The notes under the pieces are model-generated. The model was not told the DNA's origin, searched no databases, and saw nothing but the letters and a program-made list of their open reading frames with translations. DNA of 64,000 nt. Source: Acidobacteria bacterium Mor1 (GTDB lineage: Bacteria > Acidobacteriota > Polarisedimenticolia > Polarisedimenticolales > Polarisedimenticolaceae). Shown one piece after another: positions 39,575 through 42,377 of the stretch. A program made the translations under genes and the position numbers. The stretch's first letter is position 1. Each line of letters starts with the position of its first letter. The DNA lies in NCBI GenBank assembly GCA_001664505.1, contig CP011806.1, positions 968,400 through 1,032,399 on the forward strand, given 5' to 3'.

Positions 39575-40603
39575 CTAGCGAGAGGCGCGCAGATGGCGGT
39601 ACCAGACGTTGACCGCGCGCTGGTGCTCGGCGAGGCTCTCCGAGAAGGTGTGCCCGCCGCCGGGGGCCGCCACGAAGTAGAGTTCCCGGGTGTCCAGCGG
39701 CCGGATCGCCGCGTCGAGACTCTCTCGACCGGGATTGCAGATCGGGCTCACCGGCAAGCGGCCGATCACGTAGGTGTTCCAGGGTGAGTCGTGGTCGAGA
39801 TGTTTGCGCAGCAGCCGCTTGACCGGCGTGCCGGCTCGCAGCATCCCGTACATCACGGTGGGATCGCACTGCATCTTCATGCCCCGGCGCAACCGGTTGT
39901 GGAAGACGCCGGAGATGCGCCAGCGCTCATCGGGCACCCCGGTCTCTTTTTCGATCATCGACGCCAGCGCCACCGCGTCGGTCACGCTGAGCGAGGCCTC
40001 CGCCGCACGGGCGATGTAGTCCTTGTCGACGATCTCCCGCAGGCCGGCGACCATCGCCGCCACGATGCGGCGAGGATCCTCCCCCCGGGGGAAGTGGTAG
40101 GTATCGGGAAAGAGATAGCCGTCGAGATGCTCTGCCTCGGGCACCAGGTCGTGAATCGGCGCAGGGTCCTGCATCGCGGCCAGCAGCGGCTCGTACTCGG
40201 CCACACCGGCATCGGCGAACCGTTGGGCGATCTCCTCCATCACCAGCCCTTCCGGGATCGTGACCGGATGCAGCAGCACGTCGCCGCGCTGAAGCCGCTC
40301 GAGGACCTGAACCGCCGAGGCGGCCTGGTGGAAGCGGTACTCCCCTGCCCGCAGGGAACCGGCGCTGCCCTTGAGACGCAGCCAGACCCGGCCGGGGAGC
40401 GCCCGGGTCAGGACACCCGCTTCGCTCAGGCGCTCGAGCATCGTGGCCGCGGCCATGCCCCGGGGCAGCTCCACGACCACCTCGTCCCCCTGCCAGGCGG
40501 CGTAGGGACGGTGGAGCTCGCGATAGCCCTGGAACAGGACGAAGGCTGCAACGCCGGCAGCCAGCAGCGCCAGTGCAGCCGCGATTCTCAACGCGATCTT
40601 CAT
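39575..40603 (-). CDS. mltG: Endolytic murein transglycosylase MltG
   Basis: Inner-membrane enzyme that cuts nascent glycan strands. The 342-residue protein has one helix (about 7-27), a LysM-like segment (DEVVVELPRGMAAATMLERL) and the YceG catalytic domain: LDGYLFPDTYHFPRG, then ALASMIEKETG, whose Glu218 is the catalytic acid. Toward the C-terminus are HDSPWNTYVIGRLPVSPICN and YFVAAPGGGHTFSESLAEH. The start overlaps the ruvX stop (ATGA). mltG next to ruvX is a common arrangement. Confidence 0.97.
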   Translation of the reverse strand: MKIALRIAAALALLAAGVAAFVLFQGYRELHRPYAAWQGDEVVVELPRGMAAATMLERLSEAGVLTRALPGRVWLRLKGSAGSLRAGEYRFHQAASAVQVLERLQRGDVLLHPVTIPEGLVMEEIAQRFADAGVAEYEPLLAAMQDPAPIHDLVPEAEHLDGYLFPDTYHFPRGEDPRRIVAAMVAGLREIVDKDYIARAAEASLSVTDAVALASMIEKETGVPDERWRISGVFHNRLRRGMKMQCDPTVMYGMLRAGTPVKRLLRKHLDHDSPWNTYVIGRLPVSPICNPGRESLDAAIRPLDTRELYFVAAPGGGHTFSESLAEHQRAVNVWYRHLRASR

Positions 40604-41058
40604 GAAAAAGGCAGCGGGCCGTCGAGATCGACGGCCTGGGAGTCGAGGTAGCTCTGCAGGATCAGCGTCGCCGCCAGAGCATCGATCACCTTGCGGCGTT
40701 TGCCCCGGCGTACACCGCCGCCGATCATCGCGCGCTCGGCCTCGACGGTGGTCAGCCGCTCATCCCACAACTCGACGGGAATCTCCGGGAAGCGGTCGCG
40801 CAGTTGCGCGGCGAAGGCCTCGGCCTGTTCGGTCGCGGTTCCCGCGTCTCCCGACAGCAGCAACGGGTTACCGATCACGATTCGGCGGACCTCGTGCTCC
40901 TCGATCAGGTCGCGGATCGCCGCCAGGTTGCGGCGCTTGCCCTCGCGCTCGATGTTGCCTACCGGCTGCGCCGTGACTCCGAGCAGGTCGGAGAGCGCGA
41001 TGCCGATACGGACTTCGCCGAGATCGAGGGCCAGCACCCTACCCGAGGGTTCGCTCAA
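40600..41058 (-). CDS. ruvX: RuvX/YqgF Holliday-junction resolvase-like RNase H-fold protein
   Basis: 152 residues; also implicated in 16S rRNA 5' processing. The start is TTG at 41058, inside the stop of the upstream selenoprotein-type gene (TTGA). RNase H-fold motifs: VLALDLGEVRIGIALSD (first catalytic Asp), IVIGNPLLLSGDAG, LWDERLTTVEAERAM (Glu) and KVIDALAATLILQSYL (last Asp). Translation is probably coupled to the gene before it and to mltG after it. Confidence 0.95.
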   Translation of the reverse strand: MSEPSGRVLALDLGEVRIGIALSDLLGVTAQPVGNIEREGKRRNLAAIRDLIEEHEVRRIVIGNPLLLSGDAGTATEQAEAFAAQLRDRFPEIPVELWDERLTTVEAERAMIGGGVRRGKRRKVIDALAATLILQSYLDSQAVDLDGPLPFS

Positions 41059-42068
41059 CGGCCCCCCGCCGCAGCAGCCGCGCCGGCCGTCCCGCTCTTG
41101 GGCAGCTTGGCGACCACACCGTTGACCCAGTCGAGCATGCTCTGCTCGGCAGGATAGATCGCGCCCAGCAGGTGGATGTAGGTGTCCACCGAGGCGATCT
41201 TGCCCCCGCCGCCGAAGTACAGGCGGCTCTCGCCGCAGCGCTTGCCCTGGTTGCCCGAATAGAGCAGCCAGCTGTCGTTGTGACGGTCTTCACGGGTGGT
41301 GTACAGGCCCCCGTAGGAGCCGACCACGATGTCGATCCCGGGGACGGTACGCACGATGCGCTTGGCCTCTTCCTTGTGCAGCGCAGCCAACATGACCACC
41401 ACGTCGACCTTGTCCCGCACCTCCTCGATGTAGGGCCGCACCACGTCATCGGGCTTCTTGATCACCAGGTTGGCGCCGTCGGGACCCGCCTTGGAAAACA
41501 GCGGGTTGTAGCGCGCAGCGCCGACGATGCCGACCTTGAGCTTCTTGCCCCCCTTGGGAGCCTCGGCCTCGACGATCACGTAGGGCTTGAACACCGGCTC
41601 GCCGGTGTCCTGGCGCACGATGTTGGCCGAGACGAAGGGGAACGCGGCCCCCTTGGTGTTGGCCAGGAACGCGTCGTAGCCCAGGGACAGGTCCTTGGTG
41701 CCGACGTTCGCCGCGGCGTAGCCGAGCTTGCCCATGCCCTCGATCAGGGCCTTGGTCTTGGCTTCCCCTTCAGCATCGGGGTTGCCGGTCCAGTTGCCGC
41801 TGTCGACCAACAGACGCGGCGCCGTTCCGAAGTTTTGTTCCAGCTTGTCGATTAGCCAGGCCCGCCGGGCCAGGCCCCCTGAGGGGTTCTTTTTTCAGCC
41901 ACAGGGTTCGAGATAGCCGATCACGTCCCCGGTGTAGATCAGGTGCAGGCCCGGATCCTTGCCCGGCTTCACCAGACCACCGGCCTGGGTCTGGGCCCAG
42001 GCGGCGCCGGTCGCGAGCAGGGCCACCGTCAGGACGGCCACGGCCGTTCGCATGATTCTCGTGCTCAA
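41055..42068 (-). CDS. UshA/5'-nucleotidase-like exported protein with in-frame TGA: predicted selenoprotein
   Basis: One gene read through a TGA at 41897-41895. TTG at 42068 is the best start (GGAGG seven bases upstream; ATG at 42053 is the alternative). A signal peptide (AVAVLTVALLATGAAWAQ) precedes LIYTGDVIGYLEPCG, then TGA (codon 58), then KKNPSGGLARRAWLIDKL in the same frame with no other stop for 279 more residues. As I recall the family, this spot reads Cys-Gly-Cys followed by GGLARR, so TGA replaces the second Cys, as expected for selenocysteine. Metallophosphatase-like motifs follow but are degenerate (VDSGNWTG, NVGTKDLSLG, MLAALHKEE, VGSYGG), so a redox role is possible. A SECIS-like hairpin lies right after the TGA. 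A nonsense pseudogene is the main alternative. The stop overlaps the ruvX start. Confidence 0.8.
41854..41897 (-). promoter_or_regulatory. SECIS-like hairpin downstream of the in-frame TGA
   Basis: Numbering from the T of TGA, a stem pairs bases 27-31 (GGCCC) with 35-39 (GGGCC) around a GGC loop at 32-34. After a T-T mismatch, 23-25 (GCC) pairs with 41-43 (GGC), and a G-T pair closes the bottom. The loop starts with G and lies about 28 bases beyond the TGA, within the distance usual for bacterial SECIS elements. The coding region here is GC-rich, so chance pairing cannot be excluded. A smaller CCCC/GGGG hairpin lies between it and the TGA. Confidence 0.5.
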
Positions 42069-42377
42069 GGTGCTGCCTCCAGCCGGCCGGCCGCCATCGG
42101 TTCGGCGCCGACCCGCGATGCATTCGTAACCTACCAAACCCCGCGACCGGTGTCCGGAAAACGGGGCAGGAACCCGGCTCGGACAGAACCGCCGGGCACA
42201 TGGAGAGGCTGTCGCCTATCCGGGGTTTCCGCAAGTAAAAGACACGTACAAGCGGCCGGGCCGCCGGTTGCCGGGCCCGTAGCCCCGACCAGCGGATAAG
42301 TCAATTATAAGAAACCGGCGGCAACTGCAACAAACCGGTCTCCCTCCGGCCCGCCCCCTGTGTAGAATTCCGTTTCC
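42069..42377 (-). promoter_or_regulatory. Divergent intergenic region with a likely promoter for the selenoprotein-ruvX-mltG unit
   Basis: 309 bases between divergent genes with no protein gene. On the minus strand a perfect TATAAT lies at 42309-42304, with TTGCAG upstream at a short 15-base spacing, predicting a leader of about 230 bases before the TTG at 42068. The leader can form a GC-rich hairpin (CGGGCC with GGCCCG near 42255-42280). Boxes for maf on the plus strand are less clear; TATAAG at 42306 overlaps the other -10. Confidence 0.4.

Follow-up and report, generated by a model that had tools for sequence, protein, structure and literature searches.

The window, the whole stretch of 64,000 nucleotides that was analysed, carries on its minus strand a gene of 338 codons (41055–42068) that is interrupted by one internal TGA at codon 58 (41897–41895). 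Retranslation reproduced exactly the coordinates and residues given in the preliminary description, which had reported one frame broken by a lone TGA at this position. The gene starts with TTG, and a Shine-Dalgarno sequence GGAGG (42076–42080, minus strand) was recognized in the sequence 7 nt ahead of this start; translation could also start at an ATG at 42053. The open frame continues for 279 codons past the internal TGA and the gene ends in a terminal TGA (41057–41055). With the internal TGA read as selenocysteine (Sec), a reading based on the TGA/Cys comparison and the invariance of the motif described below, the product has 337 residues and the motif Cys56-Gly57-Sec58. By eye, the translation begins with an N-terminal signal peptide (41994–42068, minus strand; ...MRTAVAVLTVALLATGAAWA) that is likely cleaved before Q26. 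A hairpin similar to bacterial SECIS elements, GCCUGGCCC-GGC-GGGCCUGGC (41855–41875, minus strand), follows the internal TGA, and its apical loop GGC begins 28 nt past the UGA.

The next gene downstream is ruvX (40600–41058, minus strand; Pfam RuvX, E 3e-43), whose TTG start (41058) overlaps the TGA stop codon of the selenoprotein gene. Further neighbours are mltG, also downstream, and maf, which is upstream and divergent. These neighbours were kept in many relatives, and ruvX was found near downstream of the selenoprotein gene in most of them, in agreement with the coupling to ruvX that had been noted before. Conservation of the maf/ruvX/mltG neighbourhood suggests vertical descent of the selenoprotein gene. 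As neighbours, however, ruvX, mltG and maf are uninformative on the function of the protein, and ruvX is a conserved neighbour that lies outside the function of the selenoprotein gene.

Conservation and probable decoding of the in-frame TGA

A protein search returned matches in 49 of 60 relatives, of which the closer ones mostly contained exactly one TGA and the rest none. The codon at the motif was read in the best 30 loci, window included. It was TGA at the identical codon of the motif in 23 loci and a Cys codon (TGC/TGT) in the other 7, so that the Cys expected at the TGA column in the preliminary description is indeed present in seven homologues. The 22 other genomes of the class that retain TGA at the position of codon 58 encode proteins with identities of 35–65%, and in all of them the frame past the TGA was under protein-level constraint. 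Occurrence of the same single-TGA frame in many relatives, at the same motif codon, rules out a chance occurrence. In an alignment of 29 members, Cys56, Gly57, position 58 (C/U), Gly64, Gly65 and Arg69 were invariant. At least three switches between Sec and Cys were required by a tree from which the motif columns had been left out. A wider contig search found just distant hydrolases, mostly rhizobial, with identities of 28–35%. Plasmid records gave 27 matches; among the matches listed, all were below 30% identity and the annotated ones were ordinary UshA-type hydrolases.

The genome that holds the window is a single contig of 5.985 Mb. The preliminary description had proposed looking for selA, selB, selC and selD, and all four were found in this genome. 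The tRNA-Sec scored 72.7 bits, above the Rfam cut-off, and ARAGORN confirmed its anticodon tca. The scores for SelA, SelB and SelD were 516, 330 and 358 bits, compared with cut-offs of 268, 242 and 125, respectively. In addition, selD (L074, G000:C1:2910488-2911429) contains one in-frame TGA of its own, in the context ASCAG-U-ASKMGP, which we take to be the known place of Sec or Cys in SelD, and a SECIS-like hairpin of its own, whose GUG loop lies 33 nt past that TGA. Judged from these sequence features, the SelD of this genome is very probably a selenoprotein as well, and its TGA and hairpin make it very probable that UGA decoding is used elsewhere in this genome. A tRNA-Sec above the cut-off was found in 38 of the 41 class genomes. 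Thus, the Cys versions are not simply confined to genomes lacking Sec. Several class genomes had two to three tRNA-Sec matches above the Rfam cut-off, one at ~70–78 bits and the others at ~50 bits; the low-scoring matches may represent different tRNAs with a long arm.

RNAalifold predicted, directly after the UGA, a hairpin that recurred at one location in the UGA genes; none of the Cys genes tested had it. The bacterial SECIS model, as given in a 2026 review, has a loop of 3–9 nt with a G in the first two positions, an upper stem of 4–16 bp, a distance of 16–37 nt from the UGA and a minimum free energy of ≤ −7.5 (PMC13188914). The hairpin of the window (stem of 5+3 bp, −14.2 kcal/mol) lies within these published constraints. 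Its folding energy is by itself unexceptional (z −1.7). Given that the stem overlaps the codons for GLARRA, shuffling of synonymous codons, with the own codons of each gene, was used as the test. In the 23 UGA genes, 193 of 207 stem pairs were formed, compared with 154 ± 4.7 in the shuffled genes (none of 300 shuffles gave more than 167). Six Cys genes formed 29 of 54 pairs, compared with 30.6 under shuffling. For covariation, the UGA genes were combined with four relatives found elsewhere in the phylum, outside the class, which have different stems (AUUAGCCC/GGGCUAAU, CAC/GUG, CGC/GCG). Once these relatives were added, both sides had changed in 4 of the 9 stem pairs. The covariation score was 0.368 compared with 0.152 ± 0.019, was above that of every slid register and was matched by 0 of 500 shuffles, although shuffle counts of this kind, here and above, are not probabilities, as kinship alone can lift sequences above shuffles without any structure. 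The paired changes were spread over several positions of the stem and over different genome families. The search for a bacterial SECIS element downstream of the TGA, which the preliminary description had proposed, thus yielded a hairpin with covariation. Two loci from outside the class, L083 and L084, have a different hairpin, CUGGGA-GGUCU-UCCCAG, 18 nt past the same UGA; from these sequences, the position of the SECIS element seems to have shifted within the UshA-like family.

A single stop within a frame usually indicates a sequencing error or a gene that is decaying through a nonsense mutation. Such an origin of this TGA has a negligible probability, however, because the codon is shared with 22 other class genomes whose proteins have diverged to the extent given above, the downstream frame is constrained at the protein level and the hairpin is conserved. 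Comparison with these genomes excludes the isolated error for which resequencing had been suggested as a test, and refutes a pseudogene as well. A genome-wide reassignment of TGA to an ordinary amino acid would likewise keep the frame open. This reading is refuted by the terminal TGA of the gene and of most relatives, by the presence of tRNA-Sec with anticodon tca together with selA, selB and selD, by Cys at the codon in relatives and by a SECIS element that stands behind the TGA versions only, and we regard it as having practically no chance of being correct. Given the Sec machinery, the conserved TGA with its exchange for Cys and the covarying SECIS element, the gene very probably encodes an exported UshA-like (NF041198, 'PCGU') selenoprotein, as judged from sequence comparison. 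The same three lines of evidence sustain the earlier preference for Sec over a dead gene, and the UGA-interrupted gene can be regarded as settled as a very probable selenoprotein gene. SelB and Sec-tRNA-Sec would insert Sec at the UGA at 41897–41895, and the hairpin at 41875–41855, whose role as an RNA signal emerges from the comparison of genes, would direct this decoding.

Relation to known families and loss of the metal site

The protein matched the NCBIfam model NF041198 "UshA-like (seleno)protein" with E 2e-47 and 161.7 bits over model positions 20–263 of 519, below the curated cut-off of 275 bits. All 29 aligned members matched this model. The long relatives of the class scored 246–277, and one alone of those scanned was above the cut-off. 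Because the short form falls under this curated threshold, automated pipelines will probably annotate the gene as split or truncated. No Pfam model matched the window protein, a SepF match being under its cut-off, and the Rfam families matched in the region were chance matches only.

A UshA-like CxU selenoprotein was reported in 2008 in PLoS Genet from Global Ocean Sampling data (PMC2398784) and also appears in reviews of 2022 and 2026, the latter of which names NF041198 (PMC9312934, PMC13188914). These three were the only papers found that list the family with Sec. The family has therefore been catalogued since 2008, which answers the question, left undecided in the preliminary description, of whether it already counts among selenoproteins, and the gene in the window is a new short member and not a new family. 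No function test of the UshA-like selenoprotein family was seen in the parts of the literature available to us.

Similar to the members of NF041198 (UshA_like_PCGU; COG0737), the window protein has Pro-Cys-Gly-Sec at the same place, with the PCG[U/C] motif inside an N-terminal phosphatase-like domain, and Sec and Cys are exchanged among its relatives. Different from them, it is without the C-terminal cytochrome-c554-like four-haem half and scores below the cut-off. UshA-like selenoprotein family 2 (NF049981) belongs to the same superfamily and also consists of selenoproteins. The match to it was weak, however, at 39.9 bits, far under the cut-off of 140, and the motif listed for it is CxxU instead of CxU (PMC13188914).

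The alignment profile matched the structures of 5'-nucleotidase and SoxB, so that the protein shares a fold family, by sequence profile, with UshA and the SoxB thiosulfohydrolase (TIGR04486). Different from these enzymes, it has lost the metal site, has Cys-Gly-Sec instead and is without a nucleotide-binding C-terminal domain. The ligand motifs sought for the dinuclear metal site were D-x-H, GD, GNHE, H and GH-x-[HQ]. Asp48 is the sole survivor of the UshA ligand set, the other six of the seven ligands being lost, which upholds the earlier claim that the phosphatase metal sites are degenerate. At what we take to be UshA His43, Asp84, Asn116, His252 and Gln254, the window protein has Ile, Asn, Thr, Tyr and Gly, respectively; the catalytic His117 is Lys, and there is no conserved His at His217. 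Cys-Gly-Sec stands directly behind the first former ligand motif. The predicted structure, with a pLDDT of 43, was too low in confidence for locating the motif within the fold and was left unused. As far as its sequence tells, the protein is exported, is related to 5'-nucleotidase and SoxB and has a single metallophosphatase-type domain. Loss of the ligand and catalytic positions makes a phosphatase unlikely.

Short and haem-fused forms

In most relatives of the class, four CxxCH motifs and a Pfam Cytochrome_C554 domain follow the phosphatase-like domain, and the C-terminal part of the NF041198 profile covers this cytochrome-c554-like four-haem domain. The window protein has no CxxCH motif, and the C-terminal half of NF041198 was unmatched. 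The domain is likewise missing from L036, L038 and L040–L043, and from most relatives of the order. It is kept in L037 and L039, which are from the same family of genomes as the window, as well as in L044, L045, L055 and others. On the tree, the architecture must have changed at least twice; grouping of the short forms in one clade was weakly rejected (p-AU 0.04). In the draft genomes with L048 and L060, the cytochrome domain looks frameshifted, and these two loci were excluded from the loss count. No separate four-haem or cytochrome gene was seen adjoining the selenoprotein gene. Two weak Cytochrome_C554 matches were found elsewhere in the genome.

Three features, namely the strict conservation of Cys-Gly-Sec, the loss of the metal site and the fusion to a haem domain in relatives, suggest that the protein is probably a periplasmic thiol/selenol redox protein. 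The fusion strengthens the oxidoreductase role that had been proposed in the preliminary description. The Cys and Sec of the protein would alternate between a reduced state and a selenylsulfide. In the long relatives, the fused four-haem c-type domain may donate or accept the electrons, and in the short form a separate carrier would replace that domain. As a tentative explanation, which we hold with slightly less than even confidence, a metal-less metallophosphatase fold may have been turned into a selenol oxidoreductase of the periplasm that is connected to a four-haem cytochrome, and this lineage may have dropped the haem half at least twice, leaving a stand-alone selenoenzyme in need of another electron carrier.

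Two other functions were considered. Within the former active site, the motif of the selenoprotein could coordinate a metal or some other soft ligand rather than form a redox pair, given that it stands directly behind the first former metal-ligand position of a fold built for holding metal ions there. With six of the seven UshA ligands gone and a four-haem fusion in relatives that points to electron transfer, this function is unlikely. It is very improbable that the protein is still a hydrolase, either a nucleotidase or a SoxB-like thiosulfohydrolase: the sequence relation to both enzymes speaks for it, but the positions of the UshA ligand and catalytic residues are replaced in the window protein. 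The UshA-like selenoprotein family comprises both a four-haem cytochrome fusion and repeated haem-less forms, which together point to electron transfer and provide a concrete handle on the function of the family.

Short haem-less forms were also observed outside the class of the window, in other parts of the phylum, at loci L081–L085, with Sec in L081–L084 and Cys in L085.
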